Source of the DNA: Endomicrobiia bacterium
GTDB taxonomy: Bacteria; Elusimicrobiota; Endomicrobiia; DTEH01
NCBI GenBank assembly: GCA_025059805.1
Contig: JANXDG010000064.1
Span: 1 to 46,123 of the forward strand
Reading direction: 5' to 3'
DNA: 46,123 bases
Numbering within the stretch: the first letter of the stretch is position 1; every line of letters starts with the position of its first letter. Below are positions 6,109-37,903 of the stretch, in pieces. The position numbers and the translations under genes were made by a program. The notes beneath the pieces were generated by a model that made no database searches, was not told the DNA's origin, and saw nothing but the letters and a program-made list of their open reading frames with translations.

Positions 6109-6116
6109 ACTTTAAA

Positions 6117-7013: not shown

Positions 7014-7022
7014 ACATCAAAA

Positions 7023-10136: not shown

Positions 10137-10232
10137 TTGTTTTATCCCTCCTTTTTTTAGATTTTTATATATTTTCATCTTTTTCATCTACTTTATAGAA
10201 TGTTTATATATGTGAGAAATCTCAGTACAAAA

Positions 10233-13722: not shown

Positions 13723-15365
13723 GGAAGTGTTAAACCGACATTAATATTCTCATATCCTTCTTCTTTTTCTTTAGCGAAAGATTTAAAAATTTCGTCAATT
13801 TCGTCATAGTCAAGTTCTTCTTTTTCTAATAGTTTTTCAGCAAAAAATTCTGTCACGGTCCAGTTTGAGGTTAAAAAGTCCTCTACTTCATGTATACAAT
13901 AGTTTATTATTTTTAAACTTTCATTGTTAAGTTTCTCTTTTAAAGATTCTGAAATTTCATTCTCAGGTAAAACAGAAAAATTACCAACAAGTAGTTCATT
14001 ACTATCCAGTGACATACCTAATTTCCAAACCATAAAATGTGCAATTTGTGTAGCATAACGCAGGTCTGCTTCTACACCGGTTGAAGTTGAACCAAACTTT
14101 TTCTTTTCTGCAACATATCCAGCAAGCGAGACCTTTATATCTGCAAGCAGTTTTTCTTTACTCATAGTGTAAAACTCTTCTTTTGGTATGTGACTTACAA
14201 GACCTAAAGCGCCACCACGAGATACTATTGAAGCTTTAAAAACATCATCAGTAGGATGTAGATAATAAAGCACCACTGTATGTCCAGCCTCGTGATAGGC
14301 AATTCTTTGTTTTTCTTCAGGTACGAGTGTAAGTTCATGTCTAAGCCCAAGTTCTATTCGGTCAATAGCTTCCATAATATCTTGCATATCTACAACTTCT
14401 TTTTGATTTCTTAATGCTATAAGTGCCGCTTCTTTAACAATATTTTCAATATCAGCTGGTGATTTATAGACAGTTTTTTTTGCAAGTTTATCAATGTCAA
14501 TATTAGGATCATGTTTTACTTTTTTTAGATAGTATTTAAAAATTTCTTTTCTCTCATTAAGATTAGGTTTGCTAATATATATCTTTCTATCAAACCTTCC
14601 AGGACGAAGTAATGCTGGGTCTAACACTTCTAAAGGTGAATTTGTTGCACCAATGACTACAACATTAGCTTGAGAACTTTCTAATCCATCCATCTCAACT
14701 AAAAGTTGATTCTGTGTAGAATTTGTTTCTTCACCTGCACCCATAAACGAAAAAACTCTACCTCTACCTATAACATCTAATTCGTCTATAAAAACTATAC
14801 AAGCACCATAGGCATATGCATATTCCCGTGCTTTCTTAAAAAGTTTTCTTATTCTTGCAGCACCTACACCTACAAAAATTTCTACAAATTCAGACCCTGC
14901 TACATGTAAAAACGGCACCTTTGCTTCAGTAGCGATAGCTTTTGCAAGTAGTGTTTTACCACAACCTGGCGGTCCTATAAGTAAGATTCCTTTTACAATT
15001 TTTCCACCAATTTTTTTAACTTTTGTTCTATCTTTAAGCAATTGTACAACTTCCATTGCTTCTTTTTTTGCCTGTTCTAAACCTATAACATCTTTGAATT
15101 TAACATTTATTTGTTCAGGTTCAATCTTAGATTTTTTCATAGAAGCTAGTCCACCACGAAATATCGTCATATAAAAGTACACAAATATAAATGCATTAAG
15201 TCCTGTAAGTAGTATCTGAACAGGAATAGTAGAAAGTGTAAGGTTTCTATAGAACGATTCTAACGAACTTAACCCAATTATTGCAAGAATTAATAACACA
15301 ATTGAAGATAAAATTACAACAATTAAAAGCCAATTGTTGCGAAGAAATATTTTAAATTTTCTCAT
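13719..15365 (-). CDS. ftsH: FtsH-like AAA+ zinc metalloprotease with reduced periplasmic loop
   Basis: 548 residues, shorter than typical FtsH (about 610-650). Two N-terminal membrane helices (about 12-32 and 47-70) are separated by only ~15 residues, so the usual ~70-residue periplasmic domain is missing. Then comes the AAA core: Walker A GPPGCGKT (131-138), pore motif [15 protein letters not shown], Walker B IVFIDELD, and second region of homology [10 protein letters not shown]. The M41 peptidase domain has HEAGH (H358, E359, H362) and a third zinc ligand in EADLRYAT. FtsH degrades membrane and short-lived cytosolic proteins. Its place between the receiver and lipoprotein, downstream of two giant membrane proteins, suggests a dedicated protease for them, but this is inference; it could be one of several FtsH copies. 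Confidence 0.9.
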
Positions 15366-15395: not shown

Positions 15396-15776
15396 TCACT
15401 CGCTCTTTAAGTTTTTCTTTTTTTCTTCTATTACATTTTTTATTACATTTTTAAGCTTTTGAAAGTCAACAGGTTTCTTAAAAAACGCCTCTGGTGAGTA
15501 CGGTTCCACATCTTTTCTAGCTGTTTCATCTGAAGTAATTATTATTACGGGTAGAGAATGTTCCTTTTTTTGTCTTACTTCTTTTAGAACTTCAACACCA
15601 CTGATATCAGGTAGATGAATATCAAGTGTAATACAAGCAGGATTTGATTCATCCATATATTTTAATCCATCCTTCCCTGTGAATGCAATATATACTTCAT
15701 AACCTTCATTTTTTAACCTTTCCGCTATAAGTTCTGCTATGGTAGGATCATCTTCTACTATAAGTATTGCTGGCAT
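15396..15776 (-). CDS. Stand-alone response-regulator receiver (CheY-like)
   Basis: 126 residues, only a REC domain. ILIVEDD gives the acidic pocket, CITLDIHLPD the phosphoacceptor Asp (about D52), IIITSD the conserved Ser/Thr and FFKKPVD the lysine. There is no output domain and no histidine kinase in the window. A strong AAGGAGGG site lies 12 bases before the ATG, in the gap after giant B's stop. Closely similar to the receiver at 38595-38951 (shared CITLDI-LPDI-G-EVLK), so the two are paralogues. Probably signals through protein-protein contact, perhaps with the neighbouring membrane proteins. Confidence 0.92.
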   Translation of the reverse strand: MPAILIVEDDPTIAELIAERLKNEGYEVYIAFTGKDGLKYMDESNPACITLDIHLPDISGVEVLKEVRQKKEHSLPVIIITSDETARKDVEPYSPEAFFKKPVDFQKLKNVIKNVIEEKKKNLKSE

Positions 15777-15788
15777 TTTCTACCCTCC

Positions 15789-18700
15789 TTATACTGAAGA
15801 TAAAACTTGTTTTATTGTTTCAACACTGAATATTTGTTTTAACTCTTTTTCTTCAATTATAGGTTTTGACCTGTCAGTAGAAATTAAATCTAATATTTCC
15901 AAGATAGCCGCCACTGACCATGCCTGAGATACACAACCACCTTGACTATGTGGAACGTTTCCGCTGAAAACTTCAGGTATGGTTCCATTACTTCTTACAA
16001 AATATACAAGGTTGTTAATATTAGAACTTATCATTTCTACTGCTTCATCATAAGGTCTATCTTCTAAAAGTTTTAGCTTAGCAAAAATGTATTCTCGTAC
16101 TAACCACGGCCAAACAGTCCCTTGGTGATAAGCTTGATCCTTAACCTCCATTGGCGCAAAAGTTTGATAATCTCCTCGATATTTCGGATCTACAGGTGAA
16201 AGTGTCCTTAATCCAACTGGGGTTAACAACTCATTTTCAACAACTTTTACTATATTGTGTTTCCGGCTATCATCAAGTAAATCATCTACATTACTTAATG
16301 ATACCAACATTAACGCATTTGGTCTTACTGCATCTTTATGCGGATCACCATCAATAACATCATATGGATAAACCCTACCATCTGCAAAATATTTGTTGTT
16401 TATAGATATTTTTACTTGAGCAGCAATATTTTCATACCTTGCGGCTATTTCACTATTTCCAAGTAATCTATTAAATTTAGCTGCGATTTTCAATGCGTTA
16501 TAAAACAACGCTTGTATCTCTACTGGTTTACCATTACGTGGTGTCACAGGTTTTCCATTTGGTGCTGCATCCATCCAGGTCCACTGTGCTGGTGAAACTA
16601 CAAGACCATCATCGTCCATATATATCGGCTTGGTCCTGTCAGTTGAAGTATAAGCATATAAAATTCTATTTATCACAGGCAACATTTCTTCCATAAACTC
16701 TTTATCTTTAGTTATCTCATAGTATCTGTACAATGCTTCTACAAACCATAATGACGCATCTGCAGTGTTATATTCTGCTTTACCATCAGGCCAGATTCTG
16801 TTTGGTATAATACCATCTCTTTGATGTTTTGCATAATATCTAAAAACTTCTTTTGCTTCTTTAAACCGTCCAGTTGTTATTAAAAGCCCGGTTAAACTTA
16901 TAAACGTATCTCTACCCCAAGACTGATTAAACCAAGGATAACCAGCTAAGATTTTAACTTCTCCATCTTTATCCCTTACCACAAACGAATCTGCTGCTAA
17001 TAATAGTTTAGCAAAAACATCTTTGTTTTGTTTTACTTCTTTACGAGTAGTAGACATATATTCCTGATATAAAATGTTCTCAAGTAATCCTTGGATAAAA
17101 CCGAATAACTGTATGTTTATATTTGCTTTTTCTTCAACACTTACTGCTGCTGAAGCTAACCTATTTAGTTGTTTTATGTATGTATATATCTCAGGGAAAC
17201 TTTCTTGGGTTATCCCTGCCTTGTTTAGAATATCATATAGCTTTCTAAAAAAGTCATTATGGTAACTATGATGCAACAACGACCATTTCCCTTGCTCACC
17301 TACAAACATCATCCACTGATACGAAACCAGTAAACTATGTAGATGTGGTGCATTAATATCACCAAAAGGCAACTCTTTTCTTCCCTCATCATACATAAGT
17401 TTAAAGTGTTCCATACTAACATTTCTTAACATAGTTAAGATTTGTGTGGCTTTATTAGCATCAATCTCAATATTTTGTCCTACAACATATCCTTTCATAA
17501 AATATCCTTGGGTTGTTTTTGAAGTTGTCTGAGATATAACCGTCTTTATAAACTCTGAAATATCAAAACTTCTTTCTGCAGGTAAGGATATACGGTACCG
17601 CCATAAACTTCTCCCATCTACAACTTCTTTGACAGGAGTTTTTTCACCCCATTGGTCTCCTATAACAAACGAAACATATTCAACACCAGAAGTTAAAACT
17701 TTATTAAAGAAATTTTTAAACGATGTTTCATTGTATTCAACATTATATTTGTGTGTTATTCCAGGATTATCCTGTATACGTGGGGAATCATGTGAAGTTA
17801 TCTGTAACCAAACTTTGTCAGACCTTATATTTTTTAAATCTTGTTCATTAAACCAGTCAACGTTAGCAATTGTATAAATACCATACTTCTCTCTTAAATA
17901 TCCATCCTTACCTTCAAACGCCTCCGCTACTATTATAGCATCAGGTCTTACTGACCTTATCCTTGTAATAACCTCTGAAACAAAGTCATCACCTCTCTCA
18001 TTGCCTGACTGAACTATATTATGTCCTAAATGTGGTAAAGGATATGCAAAATGTAATGCATCTAACCGTACACCATCAAAACCAAACTTCAACCAATGTA
18101 TCAAAGGATTTGTTAACAACCTATATCTGTCAGCTGCTAACTCATCCCAGTTATACAAAACTAAGTCAGTCCAATGTTGACCCCAAATATATGGTGAACG
18201 ATTATAAAAATATCTCCTGTTAAACACTACATCACATCCATCCTTACCTCTAAAAAATGGAAAATCAAACATCAACTTACAACCTTGTTGATGAAGATAT
18301 CTTATTGTTTCATTCAATTGAGTATAAGCTACATACTGCATATACTCATATAACGACTTGTATGTATCAAAAATACCAGGATTTTTTGTTGCAATTTCAT
18401 TAATCTCATCCACACTAGTAGGATATCTACCAACAATTTTATAAGCTGCCATAAACCTACTGTAGTTATCTAACCAGAAAGAATTCTTTTGTTTGAAACT
18501 TTCAAATTTTCTATCTCTCCTATCTAAAAAATGTTTATACACAACTTTTGCAACTTCAAACTCTACATCCCTTAAAACTTCATAATTTATAACTTCACTC
18601 TCAACAGCTTCAAGTTTAGTTTTAATTTCACTTATTATTTTCTTAGGTAATCCGATCCGCTGTGCTTCTTTCACCCAGTCAATATAAAGTTCGTTAATAG

Positions 18701-21700
18701 CATACACTGACACTGCTGCATATGGTGATTCATCTAATGGTGTAAAATGTGGCAACAAAAGTATTGTATTAACACCAGCAGGTTTAAGCATTCTATCAAA
18801 CACCTCTATAAGGTCTGTTATCTTGCCAATACCGTAGCGATTTTGTGAGTTTCTTAATCCAAATATAGGTAAACTACAGGCAAGCCTTGTCCTTGTAAAA
18901 GCTAAAGCATCTGATACCTCCTTGTCTAATCTATCAACATGAACTACAGATTTCAACCTATATGCTGGCAACCACAACTCTTTAATATACCTTTTAACAA
19001 CATTAGTAACATCTACCTGTGGTGTTGTTTGTAAAGCGTTCCACATCATCTTTATCCAGTCAACATCAAAGTTCCATCTGTTAATTTCTCCAATACTTCT
19101 TTTATAAACATCTGAAAATTTTTCAAAAACTTCTATTAAACCTAATGGAGAAGGTCTTCTGTCGGGTGTATAGTGTTCAATAAAGAAACCATTATAACCA
19201 TCAATTATATGTTCTAAAGGACCACCTGTCTTTGTTGTCATAGTAGGTATAGCGTTAGAAAGTCCTTTCATATATCCTGTAGCGGAAGCTTCTGTCTCTA
19301 ACTCTGACCACATACATAAAACATCTGCACCTTGGAATATTATCGGTGCTTCAGCTACATTAAGATTTGGTATGAAAATAATCCTACCTATAAGACGAGG
19401 ATCTCTTGCTAACTCTTTTTCTTGCAAGGTAGTCCCATCAACTTCTATGATTCTACCTTCTTGAAGTGCAATAAGTTCTCTTACTCGTGCTAATCCACAC
19501 TTGTCAGCTATATGAGGTTTACCTAAAAGAATCTGTACAACTTCTGTAGATAGAAACCTTTCTCTTAATTGTGGATCTCTCATCGCTTTAATAAAAGAAT
19601 CAACAGATTTAAAGTTAGTTTTCCTTCTTGCTTCTACAACAAAAAGTTTAGATGTGTCCGGCTTAATACCAACCTTGTGCGCAACCCATTCTGCAAATCT
19701 CTCTTTAGCTTGTCTATGAATTTCCCACATCTTTTTTATGTTTTCTTTAGAATACTCTTTACCCACCAACTCTTTAAACTCTTGTCGTTGCCAATGTGCA
19801 AGGTTTACACCACTAACTATACCTGCAATAAGACCTCTAAACTCTGGATATAACTTCCTCTCAGTAACCTCAGCATGTTCTTTGGACACACCATTAACAA
19901 CATCACAAACTGACAAACATATCTTTGTCAGATCAATCTGGCCATCCCTAACTATACCGTACTGCCAAAGTTCAGGATTAAACCTTATCCTATTAACATT
20001 CTCTATTGGTGTTTTTTGCAGCCCAGCCTCTACAGGAGTGTGTGTAGTAAACCCGTAAACTAACGAATTTAAAAATTCATCATTAGTAAACCTATCTATA
20101 ACAACCTTAGGGTGTGCAAAAGTTGTAAGTGCTTCATTAAGTTGTACAATTACAGGTTCAATTTTATCAAATGGTAAACCTAAATTAAGCAGTTTTTCTT
20201 TAAACTCAGGATTACCTTCTTGTAGTTCTTTAAGGATAGCTAAAGTACCTCTACCAAGCAATAACATCTGTTTTTCCCTTTGTTCATAAGAGGGATAAAT
20301 CTCAGTGGTAATTTCTGGATGGTCCAAAAACAAAACTACCGCATTCTTATTCGTATTAGGAGCTTTAAATATCCCAGCATAAACATTAACCACCTCATCT
20401 ACTCCATAAATAGGTACTAAAATTTTACCAAGATGAACAAGTTTGCCTTTGTTTATAGCCTCCTTATAATCTACAGGTCTCATTTCTATACTTCCATCAT
20501 CCCTTTGCATAGGTACATAATGATATAACAAACTAACACCAATTGCATTCATACCAAGGTCTGTAAGTTGTACTAACTCTTCAGTTACTAAAGGTTCCAA
20601 CCCGCCAGTTTGGTGAGCATTTGCTACACGAACACGCATCTCTTCATCTGAAAACGCTGAAAGGAAATCTTCAGTAGGTTTAAACCCAGGGGAAACATGA
20701 ATAAATGTTTTCCCATATAACTCCTTCGCATTCTGTTTAATCCATTCATATTCCCCATCCACTAATGCATCTGTAGAAGTTCGGTTCAACTTATTTATCG
20801 GAGACAACGATATTCTTACAGCATCACTTACATATGCAGACAAATTTTCTACAGGAACAAATTTAGATACTATTCCATCTTCGCCCATTTCTTGTGATGA
20901 CACAAAATTATCTATATTTTTTGTACTACCAAATATTGTTCCTAAAAACTTTCCTATACTATCTATAATTTTAGGAATGTCTTCAATTCCCACGACTTCC
21001 CATAATTTTGTATTTTCTTGTGAAATCATCTTATAATATAAAAGCTTATTATCAATTACATTTTTTATTGGCTGCCAGAAATTTCTCCCAAATACATATA
21101 TAGGTCGTCTATAAACAGTACCTGTCTGTATACTACACAATAGGCCAAAAAGTTTCTTAAATGTACCGACACCGCCAACAAAAAATATATTACATAAAGA
21201 ATTTTCTGTTAACAAAACCTCTTGTACAGAAGGATGTGATGTTGTTATCTTATTTTTTACTTGTTCTTCTAACTCTGTCAGTGGTTCGGTTGCAACATTA
21301 AATATTGCTTGGACCAAATGTTCTTTATTGAGTTTCTTAGCTGTCTTTATTACTACCTCTGACAAAGGATATCTACTTGCTATTCTTACCGGAATATTAT
21401 TTAATAACAATCGTTCAACCAAAATCTCTACATTTCTTAAATCAATACTATCTTTTTGAGGACTACCTACAAGTACAACTGCAGGTGGCCACAAGTAAAG
21501 TGTTCTTAAACCTGTTTCCAGTTCTTTGTTAGCACTCTTAACTTCTTGTGGTGTGTTTTTGTACAAATTTGGAGATTCTTTTGAAATAATATCTATTATT
21601 TCAGAAAGTTCATTTATATCATCTACTATGTAAGGTTGGGGTTGTATTATCCCTACTTTCTGCCAACTTTTATATAAGATTTTAACAATATCCTCATAAA

Positions 21701-24700
21701 AATTTCTACCATATAACACGAAATTTTTCCTTCTATGCCATATTTCAAAGATTTCATCTATTGTGCCGTATCCGCCAGGAAATGCTACAATACATAAACT
21801 ATTCTGGTAAAGTCCTAATTTTCTTGTAATAAGATGCTTGCAATAAACTACATTCTCTACATACGGTGTCACCTTTTTTTCAAAAGGAACAACAATTCTT
21901 ACCCCTTGTGTTCGAGGAGAACCTTCATATCCTCTTGCTTCAACATATCCTTTTAATACTGCTTCCATTATACCGGGTCCAGCACCTGTCCTAACATAGT
22001 ATCCTTTCTCATATAAAAGTTTACCTAAGTTATATGCATCCTGCCAAGGTTGGGAATCTTCTTTTAGTCTCGCAGAACCAAATACAACCACTGCTGGAGC
22101 CCAATTTTGAGATATCTTATAAACCTGTTCTCTTTCTGATACGATTTCTGAAATTATGGTATCAACATCTTTTGAAAATAATCCTCCTGTAGGCACTATA
22201 CTAACCTGAGAGGATTTTTCATTATTGATTTGAGACAAATTATCAGAAACTTGTCTTTTGCCAAAAATTTCTCTGATTTTTTCTGATATTTCTGAAAGTG
22301 TTAGATTAAGTTCGCTTTCATTATATATCCTTCTATATTTTAAACATTCACTTACAATCTCTGCTTTCTTAGATTGTATCTCTTTATCACCATTTATCAA
22401 CTCAGCAAGCAAACTTTTAACATTTGAATCTCTTATTTCTTCTATTAAAATGTTCAACTTCTCATACCTTTTCTTCTTAAAGGAGTACTTTCTTGCCACT
22501 AAATATAAAGCTAATCTTATTTTTTGCAACTCGTTAAGTTCTTTTACAATTTCTTTAAAATCTCTTTTGCTTATCTCAAAAATAACTTCTAAAAACTTAG
22601 TAGTAAAAATCTCACCTTTAGCTATATCAACAAGAATCTTAGAATCATATTCTACAGAAATTTTGTTTAATTTTTGTTCCAATTTTCGTTTTGTAAGGTA
22701 AGCAAGAGAAAAAGGATAAATGCTATCAACACCAAATTGGGTAAGATATGAAACAACTTCTTCAATAAATGTACATGTAACAATTAAATCGTCTAAAAAT
22801 ATTACTTTTTTCCCTTTAACTTTTTCTTCATCAACAACCAAACTCTCTTTTGCACGAACTATTCTTTCTTCTTCTGCAAGTTCTGCATACGGAATAGTTA
22901 TCTCCTTATGTCTTCTTTTTATAGATACAAACTCTATTCCTAACTTTTCTGCAACTTTTTTAGCTACTATACATATTGACCTGTCAACTTCTCTTGGCTC
23001 GTGTGCTGTTACTAACCATTCATTTTTATTTGTAATTTCTTTGCCAATTGTTTCAGATATAAGTTCTATAATTAGGGAAGAAACTTTTTCTAACGCTTCT
23101 TTTTCACCTAACTTAAATTTTGAGTAAACCAAAGTTTGTTCAATGTTAGATAGATCTTTAAATAAATAAATATATTTTGTACCAACTCTTGTTGCTATAC
23201 GTTTAAAAACTTTATATAACCCTTGTTGCTGACCAGACACATCTACAGCTGTTACACCTGTATTTAGTATATGACTTTCATCTTGTCCTTTCTCAAAACT
23301 GTTCCCAATGTACATTATCTCTTTTTCTGTGTAACCAAGCTCTTCACAAATCATTTCAATAGCATCTGCTTTTGAAAATTTGCCAATTGAAACTTTATTT
23401 TCTGACCACCATACAGCAAAGTTTAATCCTCTATTTTTAAGCTCTTTTTCTATTTCAGCATAAACTGTTTTTGTTATATCTTTGTCCTTTGTACTAATCT
23501 CTAAAACTATCTTACCTGTAGGTATTTCCTTATCTTTTTCTCTTACACTAACTATACTTGCGACATTCAACCTGTTTATTACATCCTGTAATACACTCTC
23601 AACTTCTTTCCTTTCTTTTTCACTGAACCTTTCATCTCTAACAACATTACCATCCTTAAAAACTAAGCTACCATTCTCTGCGTATACTATAATGTTTTTT
23701 TGTACCTGTTGAGGTAAAAAATTAAGTACATCTCTTTGAGCTCTATCTAACGAACCTGTTGTTAACAAAACTACAGGGACTCCTACTTTTAACAAAAATA
23801 AAAACGATTTCAACAAACTCTCCGGACCATCCTTTATCGTAGAGTTACTGTCTGGTGTTAAAGTACCACCTATGTCACACACTAACAATTTAGGCGGATG
23901 TTTATCTATTAACTTTAGTGCAGTTCTTATTGATAATTTTTTAGAAGGTAAAAACTTACTAAATAATTTTTCAAAATAACCATAGAAACTTTTAATCTCT
24001 CTAAGAGTTATAAGCATTTCTCTAAGTATAGAACTTTTATACTTATGCTGTAGAAGAAGATGATTAATTTCATGCTTGAATATACTTCGTTGTAATCTCG
24101 GAGGCAAATATTTTAGTATTGATGAGTTGATATAAATTTTGCCATCTTTAACATAGGCGGGAGTATGCCAGGAAGGTTCTGTAGTTTCTTCTACTAACGA
24201 AGGATTTTTAAAATCATCTATAATTTCATATGGAGGTCCTAATTTTAACCCAGCTTTAATAAAGTAAAAGAGATTAATGAAATATCGCCCAGTAAATGCT
24301 GCCACTACAAGCCATCCAATTGGATTAAAAAAACTATTTATTGCTATTCCTAAAGAAACAAATACTGATGCAAAAATACCTTGTGTGAAAAAAGAGAATC
24401 TTTCTTTTTTCCTATTATAAGATGAAACTTTTTGTATATCTTTTAATATTACTTCGCCATTTTTTTTAGCTGTAATTATCTTATAAACTACACCGTTTAT
24501 AGAAACCATATTGTCATTAAGAACTTCTATCTTTAAGTTTCTTATCTGTTTAGATATTTCCTGTTGATGTCCAGATTCTTCTATATTTTTCATCCAACTA
24601 TTAATCAATTCTACCAACTCGTTTTTCTTTTTACCTTGAACCACTGCGTATGCTAACAAACATAACACTATTCCTTCAGCAGTTTCTGCTGTTAAGCCAA

Positions 24701-26294: not shown

Positions 26295-26332
26295 TTTTTA
26301 ATAATTCCTCTTTTTAATTTAAATTAAATTTT

Positions 26333-29300
26333 TTATACAGCGCCAAGTATTTTCTTTATTTCTTCAACACTTATTACAGTAGGATTCCTCTCTCTTATTA
26401 ACGGCACATACTCAGTGGCAATTAACAAGTCAAAAAGAATAAGTAAATCAGATACTGTTTTAGGTTCTGTCTTTAAAGAAATAAATTTTTGTGTTTCTAA
26501 ATCAATTATATCTGACAACGCAGTCTCCCTTATTACAAGTTCTATTAGAGGATTTATATTATCCTGTAAGTTTTCCAAAACTTGTTTAGCTTTAACATCT
26601 TTTATTTCGTACTCTTTGTGTTGTGCTTTAGCGAACAACAATTTTAACCATACATCTGCTTTATCTTCCGTTTTAACACCATACAATGATACTTCAGAAT
26701 CATCTATCATAACTTTTGTTTCTAAACCGTTCATTATAGAAGCCCAATAATGTAAAAATTTAAGTTTTATATCTTGTTTTGCCTGTTGTAATGTAATGTT
26801 TAACACTTTGTTAACATACTCCTTATATTTACCTGTCAAGTGTTGTTCTCCTATTATACCTGCCAAAACAAGTTGGTGTTCAAAAGATAAATCAGTATTG
26901 ACTAACTTTTCAACTAAACTTTCTATCATACTTTGTAAACGACCAGCTTCTCTTGGATAAACCTCAGTTAAACTGTTTAAAACAACCAACTTATCTATAT
27001 CCCCACACACAACATCAACTATATTACCATCCTCATCTCTTCTTACATATTCCTCAACCATCAATAATAACCTGCTTAACACTATCTCATCTTTAAGCTT
27101 TAATTCATACACTAAATCTCTATATTTAATACCAATCATCACACTACCTATTAACCCTTCAACCATACCATAAAGTTTTGACAAAAGTAGCACCTGCTGA
27201 GTTTTCTCCTGTAGAGTTTCTAAAAGCTTTATTATTCGTTGTACCTCAGAAACATACAAAGGTAGTGAATCTTGAACTGAAATTATCTTATTTAAATATT
27301 CTCTAATCTTATTAACATCCACTGCCCTTCCAGTATTAACTACTTCTCTGAACTCCTCTGTTAACCCCAACATTGCATCTTTCAATATGTACACCAGCTC
27401 GTTCCTTTTCTCCACACCTAATCTGTCTAATACAAACTTCATTGATTTACCTAAATAATATCCTTCAATATATGCTGATTCTGTTGTCCTCTTAGTTATA
27501 TTTAACGTATAACTTATAATCTCTTCTATACCTGCTTCTATATTCTTAAATGTCATTGCAGATAAATCTTTTAACCCTGTATTTACCTCAGGTAAAACTA
27601 TACCATCTACACCTAACACAACTAACCCTACTGCTTTCTTTTTCATATTATCAACCTTATCTAAATCTTGTCGTGAGATTAGATACCACCTATCTGTTGA
27701 AATCTTTGTTATGTCAAACTCATCACTAACTACATTTGCTACCTTAATACCTAAACTTTCAACTTTATGCACTTCAGAATATGCTACATTGTACATAATT
27801 AATTCTAAGTCTCTCTTATACTTTCTTAAATCCAACAACTTATCTATATTCTGTTCATCATATTCAACTATGATCCCATCTATATTTTTTGCTATCTCTT
27901 TTATCTTTTCAGCAAACCTTACAAATTCTTCTTTAGACAATTTTAACATCAACATACCTTTAACATCTATACCTTTAATTCTTACATTTTTTAACCTGTC
28001 TATAACACTCATTAACTCATCAAAACTTAACTTTTCAACATTAGACATAACTATCCCAGATATACCTCTGCTTATATACGTTTTATACAACTCTCCTAGA
28101 GTATCTATATGACGTCTTTCTAATTTTTCCTCATCCACCTTTCTTAAAGAAACTCCTAACATAAACTTTGTCTTTAACATCTTTACAGCTTCAGAACCAA
28201 ACCATTTTAGTTCCTGTCTTGCTATCTCTAACTTTTGAAGATAGGTTGGATAAATTTGTTGTAGGATAAACACACGTTGTTTATCAGTTATAATTTCATT
28301 ATGGGTAAACTTCAAAATATTAGCATAATCGTATACTCTACTTAAATCTATCTTTCCTTCTTTTTTATACAAATCTAAAATTTTAATCTCTTCCTCAACA
28401 TTTCTCAAACTTAACTGTTCTTTATCTCCAACATACATCCATACTAATTTGTTAAATAAAATACTATAATCTTTTCTGTATATATCATCTAACAAATCAT
28501 AATAACTTAACACTCCCTGCTCACCTACCATCTCTACCACTGCTGGATTATATCTACCTTTAAACTCTTTACCTAAAAGTCCATTGTCACCACCTATTAA
28601 ATCTAATACACAACTAAGTGCTACTCTACCAAACTCTAAACCCTCCTTATCAACAGCTAAAATAGGAATTCCTTCTAAATTGTACACATCAACCTTATAG
28701 ATATCCTTTTTACCTTTATACTCAGCAACAACATTTTTTGATGATTCAAATTTTGCAGGTAAGATATCTTTTGTTATCACAACAACTTCAAATCCTAAAT
28801 TCTTGTATAACTGTATTCTACTTAGGACATCTTCAGTTAAAGTTTCACCAATAATTACTATACTTTTTCCTGACAACTTATTTGCATTTTCAACTAACCA
28901 ATTTTGTTTAGAAACAACACTACCAGCTGTAGAAGAAATTGTAGTGTTAACATTTAAAAACTTCTGCAATATTTTCATAACTTCTTTAAAACTAAAATTA
29001 CTCATAGATATTCTTTTTCTGACTTCAGGGTCTCCTACAACAACTTTTAGCTGGTTATCTGACACATCAAGATATTTTATTGCTTCCTCTAAATTCTTTA
29101 GTTCTTTAAAATCGTGAATAAGTTCACCCGCTTTCTTATACCCTACTACATTGGCTCCTTCAAGTTGTGTAATATCACCTGTGACAGCTTCAAGATAAAA
29201 ATATCCATCCTTAAATCTCAAATTATAAGGTAAACCTTTATCTAAAAGTTTACCTAAACTCTTAGCATCATATATCAACCTAAACGCATTATATGGCGTT

Positions 29301-32300
29301 TTAAGTTCTCCTGCTTTGTCAAACAACTCACGTAACTTATCAACACCTTTAGCATTTAATGTCTCAACCAAAAATTGTTTCCCTACGTATTCAAACATAT
29401 TACCACCCTTCTGCCCTGCAGGATTCTCAACTAACTCTACTACTACATTCCTGTTATTCTCTTCTATCTGATATATCGCATATGCTAACTTATCTATCTC
29501 CAAAACACTACCCTGTAACTCATCAACATTTTCAACTAAAAACTTTGTTAAATCATTTACTCTGTGGGCACCAACATATCTAACACCCCTTCTTATCAGC
29601 AAATCTAAAACTGGTGTTTTAAGCTGCCTTTTAGCTCCCGCCTTTGTCAGTTTAAAAGCAGACAATGATTTTTTAAGCTGTGCCGTAGCATAACCATGAC
29701 CATACGGAAGCTTCGCACTACCCTCAACATATTCCAACTTACCATTCTCATTTAGTTTATACCCAGAGAACATCTCATCCCTTATAAAATATACATTGCG
29801 TGGGTCTAAACCATAAAAGTGGTTATTTAAAAAATCTTTTATTACACTTTCTTCTATTTCTTCATTTATATGAACAATAATTTTTTGCCTTCTTAACACT
29901 TCTTTACTATCCATACCTTTACTCTTAGCAAGTCTACTCACAGCAGTAACCCACGCTTTAATCTGTCTTGGTCCCATCCCGATTCTCTGTGCATACTCTG
30001 GTATCTGTAGATTTTCTACTAACTTTGCTAAATCTGGGTTTTGTTGTCTTACCATCTCTATATTCTCTTTTAACAATTCTATATTTCTCCATATATCTAA
30101 ACCGTACATCCTGTACTCTGCAGGATTCAGTTTTCTACCTAAAACTTTTTCTAAGGATTCCAACAATCTTGTAGCTGCACCTCCAAACATAAATTCAGCA
30201 ACATACTCGCCATTAAGAACTGCTTGTTCTGCTTTATCTTTATAATGTTCAAAATTACTGCTTCTAACAAAATTATCTAAACTTTCAACTTTAGCTATCA
30301 CTAAATCTTCAGCAGGATATAATGAAAATGCATTTATTTTATCTATTATTCCTTCTATTACTTTTTGTGCTTTTTCTTTATCTTCTCTTGTCTTTGCTTC
30401 AAAATACGGAATTAAAGCATTTACTAATTCACTTTTGTAAGGAGTAATAAGCTGTGTTATAACCTCTTTAAAATCTTTTTCTTTAGTTGTTAGCTTTTGC
30501 CTTATATTAGTTTGAACATCCGTATCTTTTGTTATTTCTGTTTGTTTTTGTGGAGCAACTTCTACTACTTTTTTCTTTCCCGCTATAATATCTGCATACT
30601 CTGGAGTTTTACTTATATATTCTGCTATTGATTTAGGTAACAACACAAAACCTTTTAAATCACCTTTACCTGCAAAAGCGTTCCTTATCGCAGTAGAGGA
30701 TGCAGTAAATTTCTGTCCTTTAAATGTACGAGTTAATATCCCAGCTTTATTTACTTCATCTACCATCTTATTATCTTCTTCTAAAAATCTTTGTTTAATT
30801 TTTTCATCTGTGAAAGTTTTATCTAAAGCTGCATTTCTGTCTTCTCCAGGACGTTCATTAAATAAAACTTCTATTTTTTGCTTGCCAGTAAGTTTATCTC
30901 TGTTGCTATAGAATTTACCTATTGTATCCAACTTCCATTCTTTCTTATCTTTAAGTTGACCTTTTTCATCTATTGCTGACTTTGGCGCATAGTAAAACTG
31001 GTGGTCTGAACCTACAATATATGCCATCTCTAACTCCTCTACATCTTTGTTTAACTCTAACAACTTCCATATTTGTGTTTCTCCATCTTTGTCAGTATCT
31101 TTTGATATAGGTGAATAACGAATTATATCACCAAACATATTCTCTACTATCTTACCCTGCTGATGCCTATACTCTTGAGTATCCTTAAGGATGGGTTTTC
31201 TTTCATCTGTGCCAGCAATTACTAAAATTATCTGAGATAAATCATGCTCAGCCATAGCGTTAAGCGCTACTACTAAATGTCCCCAATGAATAGGATTGGC
31301 AGCCATAGCAAGCATACCTACACGCGCTTTCTTACTTACTGGCTTACCTGATTTTAATTCTTCATCTGAGACTCTTACACTCACATCAAGATCTATCTTA
31401 CCTTCTTTTATCTTTTGTTTAATTTTATTTATTACTGTCTGAAGGTCTGAAATTATTTGTTTTGCTGTATCTTTATCATATTCCTCCATAACTTCTTTTC
31501 TTAAGCTTAATAACAAAACATCTAACTTTTCAATTTGTTTTTTAACTTTTATTTCTTTATCTATTTCTAACTTATTTTTTACATTTTCTGTTTGTTTTTG
31601 TGAAGAAATTTGTTTTACTTTGGTTATTAGTCGCCTTGAAGCATCAATCAGAAGTGGTAAGGTAAGTAAAGAGGTATGAATTAAAAAGTTTTCAAGTGTA
31701 GGTGTAAAATATCCTAATTCTTTAAAAATTGGTAAAAGACTGCCTTCAATTGGTAATACTAAACTGTTAAGAAGTAAAAATATAGTAATAAACTTCTTGT
31801 CACTTTTCAACCATTCTTTTATTTGTGTCAGTTTTATCTTTGGCAGAATATTTGTTAACAAAACGGATATAAGCGTTAAATATACAGCAGCATATACTCC
31901 AATACTTATTGCAAAAATTCCTAAATAACTTAAATAAACTGGTAACAGAAAAGCTACAGCTAATATTCCTATAGACACTATTGAATGTAAAAAGTTTGTC
32001 TTATTATTTATGAGAAACTTTTGTTTTTGTCCCGTAAGGTACATCACAATATATCCCATTGTCATGCTGGAAAGTATTATACCTAAACCAAAAACAGAAA
32101 AAGTCCATGCTGGAAGAAAACTAAACCATACACCAGCAACTAAAAACCAGCTTAGTAAAATCCCTAGCCTTGTTGTTGTTGTTATCGGTTGCGTATCATA
32201 ATATCCAGGTTTATCTTTCTGTTTATAAAACAAGTTAAAATTTTCATATAATTTTTCAGCTGCAGCTAGTGCTCCATTACTCCATTGCCAACCTGGATCC

Positions 32301-35300
32301 ACACCAGCTTTATCTCCTTTTAAGATTTTAAATACACTTATAGGAAAACTTATTATATTACCTATAGCTATATAAGTAAACAACACAGTTGTGTAAACAA
32401 AACATCTAATAGCATTTACAGTTAAAGAAATCCCTGTAAAGAAAGCATCTTTTATTCCTTTTGTAGCGATCTCTGTTCTGTTTTTAAACATATATATTAT
32501 AGGAGCTAACAAATTATTAACACCTATCACACCACAGAAAGTACCTACAGTTAACAATAAAACAAGTAACGGATTTGATACAATCATCAACCCAGATAAA
32601 CCTAAAATACTCATTATTGTCAACCAAGAAGCAAATGTTATATCGCCTAAAAACCTTCTAACTAACCCTAAAAGATGATATTGATGTCTTACAGGTAAAA
32701 CATCGTTATACGGTAATACTTCTTTTAACATCTGGATATCACCACCAAGCCACCTAATATCACGTAAAATATAAGATACAAATCTTGTAAGGTCACGTTC
32801 ACCTATTGCAATTTCATCTTTGAAATAATTTACTAATTTATTTATAACCTCTTTTTCTTCACCTTCTATAACAAAACTTCTTACTTCCTTAAATTTTCCA
32901 TTATTTAGTTCATACAATGTATACATATTATTGTTTTTTATCAACTTATATAGATCAAGTCTATCACCAACTACTATTTTTAGTAGTAGTTCATTTTCAG
33001 AAATTTTAAAGTAGTCAATTTTAAACTTCTTAGAACCATAACCAAATTCAGTATCAGTCCATACACTTTCTTGCCAGTCATGTGAAAGACAATATTTTAA
33101 CAAAAACGATTCATTTTTAACTACATGTTTATGCCAGTCTTTTATTCTTACAAACACTTTACCATAGGAAGAACCCATATTGTTCATTAACCAAGCGATT
33201 GTCTTAGCTTCGCTTCTGTTATGTACTGTTCTTGCCATTTGATACATGGTTAAAAGTGAAGAAGTATATTGTGTTGTAGCATCTTGGTATGGTAAGGTTA
33301 TGTCTATAAAGGGAGATAACATCATTATACCTTGATTTTGTGGGTGAAGCATTATCCTTAAAGTTTTCTCTAAAGAACCTTCAAAAAGTTCGTTCTTATC
33401 ATCTTTAAAAAACGCTATTTCAGGGGTAAGTTCAGAAATATCTATTTCAGTGTCACCTATAACTACTCTTAACTTCTCACCATTATTGATAGCTGAGGTT
33501 ATATGTGCATTTGAAATCTTATCTCCAAAAAGTGCTTTCAAATTACCAAAGGCGTAAAGAAACATCTTTTCAGCTGGCTCATATATCACTTGTTTACTTA
33601 CAGTATTTGTAGTCAATTTTTCTTTATCTATGTATATATCGGCAGTTGTTTGTCCTGTGTTTAAGAAATGTGTAAAGAACATCATGTTTCCTGGTTTTCT
33701 ACCAAACCTATTCGTACTTACTACAACAAAAGATATTTGGTCACCAAATATTTTGAAGTCGTCATCTTTAAACATATCTTTAGGTTTAGATTTAACTTCT
33801 TCTGAAGAATATTTTTTTACAATGTCAATAAGTACATTACGATTTTTTTCTAATTCCTTTTCATCTTTTACTCCAGGACCTACTAAAAATGCAAAAACAA
33901 CTCTTAAGTTATCTTTCTTACCATTTTCGTTTACAAAGTCTAAAGTTGGTTTTATTCTTTCTATATCTTTTTCCACATAGAATGCAGCATCACCTGCTAC
34001 TTCACGAGAAGGTACATAAATTACTACTGTGTATGGCCTACCATGTTTATTCCTGTATTCTTCTAAACACTTTTTTAATTCGTACATTGACAACATCTTT
34101 TGTCCTTGTGGACCAAAAGGCAACAGGTTTGCAAAAACATCGCCTATAACAAATGTTGTCACCCTATGTGCTACTGGCCAATATATATAGTAATGGAATA
34201 AAAATGCAAGTATCCCTAAGGTAAGTCCACCTATTATAGGAATACTTAACGGTAGAGTAATCCCTAAAAGAAACAAAATCTTAAATCCAACAAATGTTGT
34301 CAAAAATGCCATCCCTACCCTAAGAAATTCTACAGAAAATTTATATATTTTATACTTTAGTGGTGTAAGATAACCTTCAATAATTAATCTTTCTTCTGTA
34401 TCAAATTTTACACCTTCTTTTATATCATCAATAAATTTTCTTAAATTTTCACTAAGTTCTTTAAAATATTTTCTATCTCTTATCCATAACTCCAAGTCTT
34501 TTAACTCCTCAGTTAAAAGTAAACTTTCATAATATTCTGGTTTGTTACCAAAAATTTTACTTAAGGAAGGCCCTACTCCTTTTAGGTCCTTTGTAAGTTT
34601 ATTATTTACTACTTCAACTACAGAAATTAAAGTTTTAACATCTTCCTCGGATAGAGGTCTCTCACGGATGTCCACAACGATTTTTCCTAACTGTTGTTTC
34701 AAACTTACAAGTTCATTAACTATTAAATTAAGTGTTGTTTTAAGTGTTTCATCTTCAACCATGTTTCTTAAATACGATAATAACTCAATTCTTTCTTCAA
34801 ATTGTCTTAATATTTTTTCAGAAAGTATTTTAATCTTTTCCTCAGCAGCTGTTTTTTTACCTTCAATAACATCTTTTTCTATATCTAAATTATCTAACAG
34901 GGAAAGAATTTTATCTCGTTCTTCGTTTTGTATTTTTATACGATTTTGATAAATTACTTCATTTAACCTATTAATCTTTTCATCTATTATAGCTAATTCA
35001 GCCTCTATACTTTCTACCTCTTTACCTTCTTTCAAATACTCTACCAATTTCTTCTTTAATTCTATCTGTTGTTTTTGTAAACTTTTTAGTTCTTTTTGCC
35101 ACTCTAGTAAGGTTTTGTTACCAGATACCAAAATTTCACCATTTTTATTCCTTACCTCTATATAAACTTTTTCCTTACTTTCTCTTTTAGTTGCAGCTTT
35201 TTTAATTTCTTTTTTTAGATATAATTCAATAAATCTCCGATGTGCACCTGACGTATTATAACCTTTTTCTGTTTTAAATTTGCTAACTAAAAACCAAGGA

Positions 35301-37903
35301 GCAAACAGGTCTATTCTGAAACTAAACATAGCTTTTAAAAAGTTCAAATCTTTTGGTCCGGTTGTTATAAGGTTAGTAAGTTTTTTTATAATTTTTAACT
35401 CAGTCCGTTTAAATGACGGTAATTCTGAAGATATAGTTGGAACAACATTTTCACCTTTTATTTTTTCTCCATAATATAAAAATAAACTTGGAGTTGAAAT
35501 AGCCCTACTAACAGCTTTAAAAACATCAATGATTTCTAAAAATGTTACAAATATCTCACTTACAAAAGGTACCTTATTTAAATGAGGGTATTTTTTTGCA
35601 AAATAAACATGCCTCAATTCATGTGTTATAACTGAATATTGTTCAGCTATATCTAATCCACTGAAAAGTTCTTTATCAATATGTATGGTATAACTACCAT
35701 CATTATTTACTTTAGTATAGGCAACTACAAATTTATTTTTTTTGGAAAGTTCTTCCATTGGATAGATGTTAGAAATAACCTCTTGAGGGAAAAGAGTCGA
35801 CATTCTTTTCTTAATATCATCAAAGCTTAACGGTTCACCACGAATTTTATTAGATTTCACAAAATAATAAGCCTGCCTAAAGAAACTAATAGTAGCTAAA
35901 ATGCTAACAAAAAAGCCAAATATTCCTCCAATAATCATAGGGGACCCTATGGTTAGTGACATTAACGCACCTAAAAATGTAGCTGTTGATATACCTGAAA
36001 AAGCAGATAATAATCTATTTAATAATGATATTCTATGTTTCCTTTGGAAACCCTGTAAATTTTGAATAGTTTTAACTCTACCTTTATCATCAATTTCAAC
36101 TCTATAAATATTACCATTTATTGATACTTTATACTCAGTGGTAGAAATTTTTTGTATATTTGTATCTCTTAACAAACCTACTAGTTGTTGTTTCACATCT
36201 TGTGGAACATTTATGTCTTTTTCTATTTGGTCAGCCCATTTATTTAAAATATCATTTAAATTTTCAAAATTTAATTCTTCTTTATTAGAAATCAAAGCGC
36301 TAAGTATACTGTTTATATATTCTTGAGGATATCCTGACTGAGCCATTGCTGTAATAAGTATGGCAAAACTATTACTTAAAAAATCAACTAAATCAAACTT
36401 TGCTAACGCTAACTTCTCATAAATTTCTTCATTATAACCCTTTGTAGCATTAGGCATTATAACAATATAAGAAATACCTAATGGTTTCAAATAGCTTGTG
36501 ATTTCAGTATGGAAACCACCAGTTACAATTATATAAAACGTTTTCCCTTCAAAATTTGAAATTTCTATATTACTATTATGTTCGCTAAGAACTACATCAA
36601 TAAAATTCTTATAAAACACATCATTCCTTTTAATATTAACCTCATAAAACTTATAATAATCCTCATCATTAACTATATCTATTACATTTTTAAACTTATC
36701 CCCAAAGTATTTTTTAATAAGCAAAACATATTCTTGCTTGTTGTTTATAAAATACTGATACTCATCAGATACAACCTTTAAACCTACTAAATCGTACAAC
36801 ACATCTGTAATAAATACTAACTTCAGCAACTCTTTATCTATCAACTTTTTAGCATATCTTACTACTAACTCTTTCTTTATCAATTTTTCTTCCATCACCA
36901 ACAATGATGGATTTATATTGTAGTTTAATTTTATAAACTCAAAAAACTTAGATAAGTGTCTATAATTTTTCAACAATTCCTTCCCGTACACCTCAGCTAC
37001 ATCTATTAAACCTAAATAATATTCCTCTATATTCTGTTGATTTTGTAATTTCTGTTGTAATTTGACATATACACCATAAGGAACAACACGGTGTAAATCT
37101 TTAAAAAACTTCTTCAGTTCAAAACTTATCCTGTTTAATTTCAAAACTTTACTTAATTTTGTTAACTCTATGTACTTTTTAATCTCAGGATAAAATTCTA
37201 ATGAAATATCATACTTTTTTGCTAACGATTCTATAAGTTTATAAAACTCTTCATTCTTTGTTGCCATTATCCTTTTATAGAACTTTTTTACATCTTTTGA
37301 TAAATATTTTTTTGTTAACAACTTAAGTTCTGACTTCAAGTTATCTACTTCAACTAAATTTATATCTTTCTTATCTACTAATCTACGCAACCTCTCGTAA
37401 TTAGATAAATATATATCCCAATCTTCTACACCATACACTTTACCACTGTTATATATTGACTCAAAATATTCAACCCCACTTAACAACCCTGTATTTAACA
37501 ACTTATCCAAAGTAGCCAATCTTAAGCTCTTATCAGGTATAGTTGAAAGTAAATACGGGAAGAAATTTCCTTTTGGTGCACCTTCTAAGAATATACGAGA
37601 TAAGTTGTATCTGTCATTAAACAACCTTAGTATTTCAAATATATTTTTTTGTACTTCAGGATGACAGTGTAGGTCCTGTATAAATACAACACAAACTTTA
37701 CTTCCATTCTCATATTTATCCACCACCCTGCCTAACCTATAAGGTAGCACAAAACCTTCAAGTTTATCTATTACTTTTTCTGCTTGTTGGCTTGCTTTTA
37801 CAACGTTTACAACTCCGTATAAAGGTTCATAAAGTATGAAAGTATAACTAAACATTACTAATACTATAAATGCTATAGGTTTTAGTATTTTAAACTTAAT
37901 CAT
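26333..37903 (-). CDS. Giant A: 3856-residue membrane glucosyltransferase/nucleotidyltransferase polyprotein
   Basis: Domains (approximate residues): anchor 8-30; Tiki/TraB/ChaN-like 45-500 (QDLHCHPEVQKN near 75, GGFHTEITSYL near 464); hydrophobic pair 634-672; HExxH site HELRH near 760; coiled coil 930-1004; membrane helices 1186-1240; GT2 OpgH/MdoH-like catalytic region 1280-1740 (YVPSREVAGDAAFYVEKDIE, CLSHDWQES with D1609, RDIRWLGGDIQML); about ten membrane helices to 2090; NadD-like adenylyltransferase 2185-2440 (HWGH 2206-2209, YIVGSDHQFYY, SSTAIRNAF); UDPGP-type pyrophosphorylase-like 2460-2960 (FMFGGAATRLLES, PYGHGYATAQL); then about 900 residues, Rossmann- and barrel-like, that I cannot assign. 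GGGAGG lies 8 bases before ATG 37903. A terminator separates it from the upstream gene, so it has its own promoter. Likely makes a glucan from UDP-glucose; no single domain is proven active. Confidence 0.82.
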   Translation of the reverse strand: MIKFKILKPIAFIVLVMFSYTFILYEPLYGVVNVVKASQQAEKVIDKLEGFVLPYRLGRVVDKYENGSKVCVVFIQDLHCHPEVQKNIFEILRLFNDRYNLSRIFLEGAPKGNFFPYLLSTIPDKSLRLATLDKLLNTGLLSGVEYFESIYNSGKVYGVEDWDIYLSNYERLRRLVDKKDINLVEVDNLKSELKLLTKKYLSKDVKKFYKRIMATKNEEFYKLIESLAKKYDISLEFYPEIKKYIELTKLSKVLKLNRISFELKKFFKDLHRVVPYGVYVKLQQKLQNQQNIEEYYLGLIDVAEVYGKELLKNYRHLSKFFEFIKLNYNINPSLLVMEEKLIKKELVVRYAKKLIDKELLKLVFITDVLYDLVGLKVVSDEYQYFINNKQEYVLLIKKYFGDKFKNVIDIVNDEDYYKFYEVNIKRNDVFYKNFIDVVLSEHNSNIEISNFEGKTFYIIVTGGFHTEITSYLKPLGISYIVIMPNATKGYNEEIYEKLALAKFDLVDFLSNSFAILITAMAQSGYPQEYINSILSALISNKEELNFENLNDILNKWADQIEKDINVPQDVKQQLVGLLRDTNIQKISTTEYKVSINGNIYRVEIDDKGRVKTIQNLQGFQRKHRISLLNRLLSAFSGISTATFLGALMSLTIGSPMIIGGIFGFFVSILATISFFRQAYYFVKSNKIRGEPLSFDDIKKRMSTLFPQEVISNIYPMEELSKKNKFVVAYTKVNNDGSYTIHIDKELFSGLDIAEQYSVITHELRHVYFAKKYPHLNKVPFVSEIFVTFLEIIDVFKAVSRAISTPSLFLYYGEKIKGENVVPTISSELPSFKRTELKIIKKLTNLITTGPKDLNFLKAMFSFRIDLFAPWFLVSKFKTEKGYNTSGAHRRFIELYLKKEIKKAATKRESKEKVYIEVRNKNGEILVSGNKTLLEWQKELKSLQKQQIELKKKLVEYLKEGKEVESIEAELAIIDEKINRLNEVIYQNRIKIQNEERDKILSLLDNLDIEKDVIEGKKTAAEEKIKILSEKILRQFEERIELLSYLRNMVEDETLKTTLNLIVNELVSLKQQLGKIVVDIRERPLSEEDVKTLISVVEVVNNKLTKDLKGVGPSLSKIFGNKPEYYESLLLTEELKDLELWIRDRKYFKELSENLRKFIDDIKEGVKFDTEERLIIEGYLTPLKYKIYKFSVEFLRVGMAFLTTFVGFKILFLLGITLPLSIPIIGGLTLGILAFLFHYYIYWPVAHRVTTFVIGDVFANLLPFGPQGQKMLSMYELKKCLEEYRNKHGRPYTVVIYVPSREVAGDAAFYVEKDIERIKPTLDFVNENGKKDNLRVVFAFLVGPGVKDEKELEKNRNVLIDIVKKYSSEEVKSKPKDMFKDDDFKIFGDQISFVVVSTNRFGRKPGNMMFFTHFLNTGQTTADIYIDKEKLTTNTVSKQVIYEPAEKMFLYAFGNLKALFGDKISNAHITSAINNGEKLRVVIGDTEIDISELTPEIAFFKDDKNELFEGSLEKTLRIMLHPQNQGIMMLSPFIDITLPYQDATTQYTSSLLTMYQMARTVHNRSEAKTIAWLMNNMGSSYGKVFVRIKDWHKHVVKNESFLLKYCLSHDWQESVWTDTEFGYGSKKFKIDYFKISENELLLKIVVGDRLDLYKLIKNNNMYTLYELNNGKFKEVRSFVIEGEEKEVINKLVNYFKDEIAIGERDLTRFVSYILRDIRWLGGDIQMLKEVLPYNDVLPVRHQYHLLGLVRRFLGDITFASWLTIMSILGLSGLMIVSNPLLVLLLTVGTFCGVIGVNNLLAPIIYMFKNRTEIATKGIKDAFFTGISLTVNAIRCFVYTTVLFTYIAIGNIISFPISVFKILKGDKAGVDPGWQWSNGALAAAEKLYENFNLFYKQKDKPGYYDTQPITTTTRLGILLSWFLVAGVWFSFLPAWTFSVFGLGIILSSMTMGYIVMYLTGQKQKFLINNKTNFLHSIVSIGILAVAFLLPVYLSYLGIFAISIGVYAAVYLTLISVLLTNILPKIKLTQIKEWLKSDKKFITIFLLLNSLVLPIEGSLLPIFKELGYFTPTLENFLIHTSLLTLPLLIDASRRLITKVKQISSQKQTENVKNKLEIDKEIKVKKQIEKLDVLLLSLRKEVMEEYDKDTAKQIISDLQTVINKIKQKIKEGKIDLDVSVRVSDEELKSGKPVSKKARVGMLAMAANPIHWGHLVVALNAMAEHDLSQIILVIAGTDERKPILKDTQEYRHQQGKIVENMFGDIIRYSPISKDTDKDGETQIWKLLELNKDVEELEMAYIVGSDHQFYYAPKSAIDEKGQLKDKKEWKLDTIGKFYSNRDKLTGKQKIEVLFNERPGEDRNAALDKTFTDEKIKQRFLEEDNKMVDEVNKAGILTRTFKGQKFTASSTAIRNAFAGKGDLKGFVLLPKSIAEYISKTPEYADIIAGKKKVVEVAPQKQTEITKDTDVQTNIRQKLTTKEKDFKEVITQLITPYKSELVNALIPYFEAKTREDKEKAQKVIEGIIDKINAFSLYPAEDLVIAKVESLDNFVRSSNFEHYKDKAEQAVLNGEYVAEFMFGGAATRLLESLEKVLGRKLNPAEYRMYGLDIWRNIELLKENIEMVRQQNPDLAKLVENLQIPEYAQRIGMGPRQIKAWVTAVSRLAKSKGMDSKEVLRRQKIIVHINEEIEESVIKDFLNNHFYGLDPRNVYFIRDEMFSGYKLNENGKLEYVEGSAKLPYGHGYATAQLKKSLSAFKLTKAGAKRQLKTPVLDLLIRRGVRYVGAHRVNDLTKFLVENVDELQGSVLEIDKLAYAIYQIEENNRNVVVELVENPAGQKGGNMFEYVGKQFLVETLNAKGVDKLRELFDKAGELKTPYNAFRLIYDAKSLGKLLDKGLPYNLRFKDGYFYLEAVTGDITQLEGANVVGYKKAGELIHDFKELKNLEEAIKYLDVSDNQLKVVVGDPEVRKRISMSNFSFKEVMKILQKFLNVNTTISSTAGSVVSKQNWLVENANKLSGKSIVIIGETLTEDVLSRIQLYKNLGFEVVVITKDILPAKFESSKNVVAEYKGKKDIYKVDVYNLEGIPILAVDKEGLEFGRVALSCVLDLIGGDNGLLGKEFKGRYNPAVVEMVGEQGVLSYYDLLDDIYRKDYSILFNKLVWMYVGDKEQLSLRNVEEEIKILDLYKKEGKIDLSRVYDYANILKFTHNEIITDKQRVFILQQIYPTYLQKLEIARQELKWFGSEAVKMLKTKFMLGVSLRKVDEEKLERRHIDTLGELYKTYISRGISGIVMSNVEKLSFDELMSVIDRLKNVRIKGIDVKGMLMLKLSKEEFVRFAEKIKEIAKNIDGIIVEYDEQNIDKLLDLRKYKRDLELIMYNVAYSEVHKVESLGIKVANVVSDEFDITKISTDRWYLISRQDLDKVDNMKKKAVGLVVLGVDGIVLPEVNTGLKDLSAMTFKNIEAGIEEIISYTLNITKRTTESAYIEGYYLGKSMKFVLDRLGVEKRNELVYILKDAMLGLTEEFREVVNTGRAVDVNKIREYLNKIISVQDSLPLYVSEVQRIIKLLETLQEKTQQVLLLSKLYGMVEGLIGSVMIGIKYRDLVYELKLKDEIVLSRLLLMVEEYVRRDEDGNIVDVVCGDIDKLVVLNSLTEVYPREAGRLQSMIESLVEKLVNTDLSFEHQLVLAGIIGEQHLTGKYKEYVNKVLNITLQQAKQDIKLKFLHYWASIMNGLETKVMIDDSEVSLYGVKTEDKADVWLKLLFAKAQHKEYEIKDVKAKQVLENLQDNINPLIELVIRETALSDIIDLETQKFISLKTEPKTVSDLLILFDLLIATEYVPLIRERNPTVISVEEIKKILGAV

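Follow-up and report, generated by a model that had tools for sequence, protein, structure and literature searches.

The question raised by this locus is what is encoded by two adjacent giant open reading frames (ORFs), at first taken to hold a whole pathway of glucan synthesis and breakdown on two membrane-anchored chains, and to what kind of protein they belong. The window analysed here (46,123 nucleotides) corresponds to a complete contig (G000:C35) in a draft genome of 1.64 Mb, 92% complete and distributed over 85 contigs. Giant A (26333..37903, minus strand) is an ORF of 3,856 aa and giant B (15789..26294, minus strand) one of 3,501 aa, neither with internal stops. The 38 bases between them (26295-26332) represent an operon-like spacing, and Shine-Dalgarno-like sequences (GGGAGG and AGAGGA) precede both. 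As the initial annotation had it, both chains begin with a hydrophobic anchor, and a small membrane protein with a CBM48/AMPK1_CBM domain is encoded nearby (929-1456, 14 kb from the giants); a domain related to it was also seen in a giant (L080) of genome G049, which belongs to the same class as the source genome (G000). A third giant (39092..46123, minus strand) of at least 2,343 aa, ending in the tail variant LIRGAA, runs off the contig end and has a homologue, itself a giant (L086; at least 4,037 aa), upstream of the B orthologue in G002, a genome of the same genus as G000. Elsewhere in the window, a cluster at 3926-7835 encodes a class-V aminotransferase (cysteine-desulfurase-like), the quinolinate synthase NadA, an ArsP-type permease and a PALP-family PLP enzyme.

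From its N-terminus, giant B (all positions on the minus strand) comprises the core of a module shared with A (residues 46-515; 24750..26159), hydrophobic helices with an HExxH part (HEINH at 741; 23925..24749), a HAD-type phosphatase-like domain (23295..23891), a phosphoribosyltransferase-like domain (22650..22970; E about 1e-3) and a LOG/lysine-decarboxylase-like domain (21585..22094). These are followed by a GT35 alpha-glucan phosphorylase-type domain (18969..20609), a GH77 4-alpha-glucanotransferase (17415..18872), a GH133 amylo-alpha-1,6-glucosidase (15897..16997) and the C-terminal tail IKQVLSSV (15792..15821). The phosphorylase with its PLP lysine, the clan GH-H enzyme with its three carboxylates and the GH133 domain had all been proposed for this chain, and both profiles and catalytic residues placed the three domains in GT35, GH77 and GH133. 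In particular, the GH133 domain covered positions 2-367 of the 367 of GDE_C (PF06202; E 8e-105), with the blocks SWGRDTF, TPRNGKPVEI and HQGTVWPW kept in the alignment to solved enzymes. The GH77 domain scored 109 bits against PF02446 (cut-off 25; E 3e-31); its GVRLD aligned with the RLD block of the family, and the carboxylates in AEAFE and SHDS were placed by eye. The phosphorylase scored 30.4 bits against PF00343 (cut-off 27; E 2e-7), with the PLP lysine aligned in EAS.TG.MK (EASATGYMK, 2335-2343), and matched TIGR02094 (E 2e-17) below the cut-off of that profile, which makes it, as judged from these scores, a divergent GT35 member. By profiles and residues, a complete phosphorolytic glycogen-breakdown set is present on B.

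Between B and its orthologue in G002 (G002B), the glucan-enzyme domains were the most conserved segments (72% identity for GT35, 66% for GH133 and 60% for GH77, vs. 45% for the head core), with a dN/dS of about 0.2-0.3, an approximate value with synonymous sites near saturation; the pattern is one of purifying selection. Moreover, giants of other families carried the GH77-GH133 pair (G021, 4,372 aa; G038, 3,669 aa), preceded by phosphorylase-related sequence, and no standalone GH77 was found in genome G000. The domains and residues of B, the conservation of its glucan part and the giants of G021 and G038 together indicate that B most likely performs phosphorolytic glycogen breakdown. The phosphorylase would shorten the outer glycogen chains to release glucose-1-phosphate, GH77 would then move the short stubs and GH133 would remove the alpha-1,6 glucose, the order of action being that of the domains along the chain.

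Giant A (minus strand throughout) opens with the same module core (residues 46-505; 36389..37768; invariant QDLH, EG and GGFH), followed by a hydrophobic stretch (643-675) with an HExxH metallopeptidase-like part (HELRH at 761; 35504..36388), a membrane glucosyltransferase-like region (31724..34306), a NadD-like nucleotidyltransferase (30584..31336), a UDP-sugar pyrophosphorylase-like domain (29054..30286) and a C-terminal region (26336..28876) ending in the tail IKKILGAV. Part of this last region is a distant relative of the segment preceding GH133 in B, and a frame-broken copy of part of it was seen elsewhere in the same genome (G000:C27:6344-7046; L144).

The three enzymatic assignments first made for A stood to different extents. 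The NadD-like domain was recovered by profile (NCBIfam E 1.5e-8) with 34 bits against an equivalog cut-off of 150, and on this score it is NadD-like only. The UDP-sugar pyrophosphorylase was supported by predicted fold, with no Pfam or NCBIfam profile match: Foldseek gave an E of 1.3e-7 (prob 1.00), and the top 50 matches were all of the UDP-sugar pyrophosphorylase kind. The model, of a 581-residue segment together with four relatives (two free-standing genes of ~500 aa and two inside the 11,778-aa giant of G049), had a mean pLDDT of 51 and was weak outside the core; the domain is thus described as UAP/AGX-type fold-like and was not filed as a family member. The OpgH/MdoH-like assignment held at the level of motifs and failed by profile. 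LSHDWQES and RDIRWLGGDIQ in A correspond to LSHDFVEA and RDRRWCHGNLM in E. coli OpgH/MdoH (SHD..E and R.RW motifs, with a membrane block after them), and these motifs with the following block are common to one other giant (G024:C17). Profile support for the region was not significant: A did not reach the OpgH/MdoH family profile, MdoH appeared at E 0.053 in a homologue only, and profile-profile comparison returned no match to OpgH. By its motifs, the region appears OpgH-like and resembles beta-glucan synthases. A GH94/cyclic beta-glucan synthase identity was also considered and dropped, GH94 occurring in G000 only as separate genes; two of these, phosphorylase genes of ~790 aa each, lie on another contig (G000:C69; L001, L002).

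Of the pathway initially proposed, the breakdown set on B was therefore retained and the synthesis part was not, because the transferase of A resembles beta-glucan synthases, its nucleotidyltransferase has a UAP/AGX-type fold and NadD has nothing to do with glucan; furthermore, A yielded no domain of a glycogen synthase, a branching enzyme or an ADP-glucose pyrophosphorylase. The payload of A would make a UDP-sugar and probably spend it in membrane glycosyl transfer. Nor are the two chains an obligate unit, as the search for the pair in G002 found B kept and the A orthologue absent.

What A and B do share is their N-terminus. Residues 1-790 of both are 41% identical, and this ~790-aa module includes the HExxH motif. 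Of 295 Elusimicrobiota genomes, 63 have giant ORFs headed by its first ~520 residues, and 49 of these genomes belong to the window's class; some of the ORFs are near 11,900 aa and stop-free. QDLH, EG, R and GGFH were invariant in 38 sequences. The AlphaFold model of the module was fair to good (pLDDT 78); no sequence-profile match was obtained against the PDB, and Foldseek against the PDB gave no significant match, with EreC, 2rad and HopBA1 at E 0.9-2.7. As the weak matches include three EreA/TraB-like structures and the module has an invariant H/E/H pattern, its predicted fold is possibly EreA/TraB-like. Copies of the module in small genomes of the large family f3 (G035, G040 and G170) carry several in-frame stops, as if decaying.

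Behind this head, the catalytic content varies. Pfam scans of other giants found cytidylate kinase with deaminase, phosphoribosyltransferases, UPRTase, GH2, PLD, nucleotidyltransferases, protein kinase, GGDEF, six AAA_5 domains, methyltransferase and phosphoglycerate kinase (PGK). The six AAA_5 (dynein/midasin-type) ATPase domains were seen in the 6,076-aa giant of G031 (L084). PGK was found inside long frames in five genomes, and also as free genes; the motifs were intact in four of the five embedded copies, that of G031 having diverged. The embedded copies were 31-66% identical to the free ones and did not pair with the copy of their own genome, by which a recent capture from the same genome was rejected. 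Since the motifs are kept in most copies at such identities and with no own-genome pairing, the PGK captures are, on sequence comparison, old and in several cases maintained. It had been anticipated that homologues existing as separate genes would speak against the first reading of the locus, and this was partly found: GH133, the pyrophosphorylase and PGK each occur both free and inside giants, which points to domain capture rather than to a fixed two-chain pathway.

The giants of the window's class also resemble one another at their ends. They terminate in (I/V)(K/R)x(I/V)L(S/G/A)A(A/G), or in narrower form (I/V)(K/R)xIL(S/G/A)AA, a tail first seen in 16 giants and then in 17 of a further 19 giants of the class that reach a stop, a count that is not fully independent as some are close relatives. 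Among the loci examined, the strict pattern was present in 22 of 35 ORFs of at least 1,000 aa and in none of 288 ORFs of 150-800 aa, and a slightly looser pattern matched 39 of 47 giants; the tails of A (ILGAV), B (VLSSV) and the third giant (IRGAA) are off-consensus variants. The tail was missing from five giants read outside the class. The tag encoded by the tmRNA of G000 is ANAYAYAA, similar in kind to the tail, and identity of the two was rejected. Nonpolar C-terminal degrons are recognised by FtsH, known examples being LAXXXXXAVLA of LpxC (PMC12444477) and the ssrA-type degron ALAA (PMC10850787), and by analogy the tail resembles such FtsH/ssrA degrons. The giants, as read from their sequences, thus have a common architecture of constant head, variable catalytic run and, in the window's class, a tail, and their enzyme anatomy is solid.

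Downstream of B, a single-domain response regulator (15396..15776), an FtsH-like membrane AAA+/M41 protease (13719..15365; 548 aa) and a putative lipoprotein conserved beside the protease gene (12949..13722) follow in this order, all on the minus strand. The protease belongs to the FtsH type, having an AAA+ domain with an M41 protease (PF00004 and PF01434), two N-terminal transmembrane segments and intact Walker A, Walker B and HEAGH; it scored 505 bits against TIGR01241, below the equivalog cut-off of 600, and is a second gene, distinct from the canonical FtsH of the genome (G000:C52). The FtsH-like gene was present in 58 of 63 module-bearing genomes overall and in 44 of 49 within the class. 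Outside the large family f3, it occurred in 9/9 module-bearing vs. 0/10 module-free genomes of the class, and outside the class in 14/14 vs. 6/16 (Fisher P-value of 3e-4), all these counts taking no account of phylogeny. The window's own family holds both states, G000 and G002 having both module and protease and G001, G003 and G004 neither, and many f3 genomes have retained the FtsH-like gene but not the module. Moreover, a tail-bearing giant adjoined the FtsH-like gene in 7 of the 17 neighbourhoods examined for that purpose, and a giant also adjoins it in the window, G024 and G049. The lipoprotein accompanies the protease gene in nearly every locus; its copy on G002:C16 is frameshifted, and G002:C34 has an intact one next to its FtsH-like gene. 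In genomes outside the class, the cassette consists of regulator, protease and lipoprotein with kinases, mostly not beside giants. RHS-repeat-like proteins are encoded in the window at 10254-12434 and 9051-10187; relatives occur close to giants in f3 and, in G020 and G065, next to the FtsH-like gene.

Because of this linkage to giants and of the degrons that FtsH is known to read, a link between tail and protease is, by linkage and resemblance, the best available hypothesis. We infer that the neighbouring protease most likely recognises the giants by their tail and would either adjust their abundance or trim them, and the receiver-domain gene suggests two-component control. In the explanation we favour, each giant would consist of a hydrophobic anchor and conserved head followed by variable catalytic domains captured from ordinary metabolic genes, the window's class adding the short nonpolar tail. 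That A and B are members of such a new family of giant membrane-tethered multi-enzyme proteins, taken jointly with the rest of this explanation, has in our judgement an even chance of being right. Counting against it are the signal-like head, the f3 genomes with the protease but no module, the cassettes apart from giants and the tail-less giants seen outside the class, the off-consensus tails of A and B, a tmRNA tag similar to the tail in kind only and a head fold with no significant match. The further proposal, that giants arise in this lineage by repeated in-frame insertion of complete metabolic genes between a fixed head in the membrane and a fixed degron-like tail, and are controlled as a class by one dedicated FtsH-type protease with two-component regulation, is tentative and a little less probable.

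Other readings were weighed against this one. The giants may be true polyproteins, as they were first called, cut into separate enzymes by the protease-like domains of the head or by the FtsH-like protease. The HExxH that follows the module in A, B, G002B and the G049 giant, the conserved H/E/H invariants of the head and the dedicated protease next door would suit such processing; however, most giants lack the HExxH at this position, recurring linkers or cleavage sites were not seen, and the tail motif, tried as an internal cleavage site, was dropped for not being enriched inside the chains. The polyprotein reading is held to be unlikely.

Of similarly low probability is that the giants are secreted or surface proteins that attack host glycogen or the surface glycans of a host or prey. 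The class includes gut symbionts, and the head, with its positive N-flank, resembles a Sec signal or anchor. This argues for export, which would separate the payload from the UTP and ATP of the cytosol. Action on other cells has also been proposed for the giant proteins of Omnitrophota (PMC10066038). Against this, the payloads are nucleotide- or PLP-dependent and normally cytosolic (PGK, cytidylate kinase, GGDEF, AAA_5, NadD-like) and would be without substrates outside, and the stop-bearing module copies are found in several small f3 genomes. The positive-inside analysis of the head was ambiguous; the cytosolic substrates of the payload enzymes and the cytosolic donor of the transferase of A argue for a return of the chain through the hydrophobic stretch after the head.

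Much less probable is a functionless accretion of gene copies, in which neutral fusions gather decaying domains. The divergence of the C-terminal region of A and of the G031 PGK and the variation of the payload between close relatives (LOG present in B and absent from G002B) would be expected from it, but catalytic motifs are kept, dN is well below dS, the glucan part is better conserved than the head and reading frames as long as ~11,900 codons remain free of stops. Finally, an assembly or frame artefact joining separate genes is practically dismissed: the draft is fragmented and many giants end at contig ends, yet in G002, G021 and G038 this architecture lies in one uninterrupted, stop-free frame.

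The initial view that this layout matches no described system agrees with the searchable literature, where no account of the giant architecture, including that of Endomicrobia giants, was found. The eukaryotic-type bifunctional glycogen debranching enzyme has, like B, a transferase followed by GH133 on one chain, and the B GH133 aligns with it; B differs in that its transferase is GH77, a phosphorylase lies ahead on the chain, and giant size, anchor and tail are added. Fused megaenzymes such as AROM and NRPS/PKS likewise carry several catalytic domains per chain, but in the giants the payload does not correspond to a single set pathway and changes from one giant to the next, with head and tail constant. 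A census of huge proteins in UniProt found Elusimicrobiota to be enriched in them, without COG assignment (PMC11573180); phylum and size class are the same, and architecture, head, tail, payload and protease partner are not described there. The giant ORFs of Omnitrophota are very long, come from small uncultured genomes and have transmembrane segments, adhesin-like features and few annotated domains (PMC10066038), whereas a metabolic-enzyme payload as in A and B has not been reported for them. With the FtsH (M41) of the LpxC and ssrA degrons the protease shares intact AAA+ and HEAGH, the tails of the giants being nonpolar and Ala-rich; it differs in being a second paralogue, ~550 aa long, whose two hydrophobic N-terminal segments are joined by a short loop, and its tail recognition is putative.

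Huge proteins of Elusimicrobiota, known only as an unannotated statistic, are now seen to have a common architecture and metabolic enzymes with intact motifs, and an FtsH-like protease is named as their testable partner. The function of giant bacterial ORFs thereby becomes directly testable in vitro, using the glycogenolysis segment of B and tail-tagged reporters. If the proposal is true, these proteins would show bacteria running metabolism on fused enzymes placed at the membrane, with turnover controlled for the whole class, and, through head-tail insertion and protease control, would amount to a new way to organise and switch metabolism.
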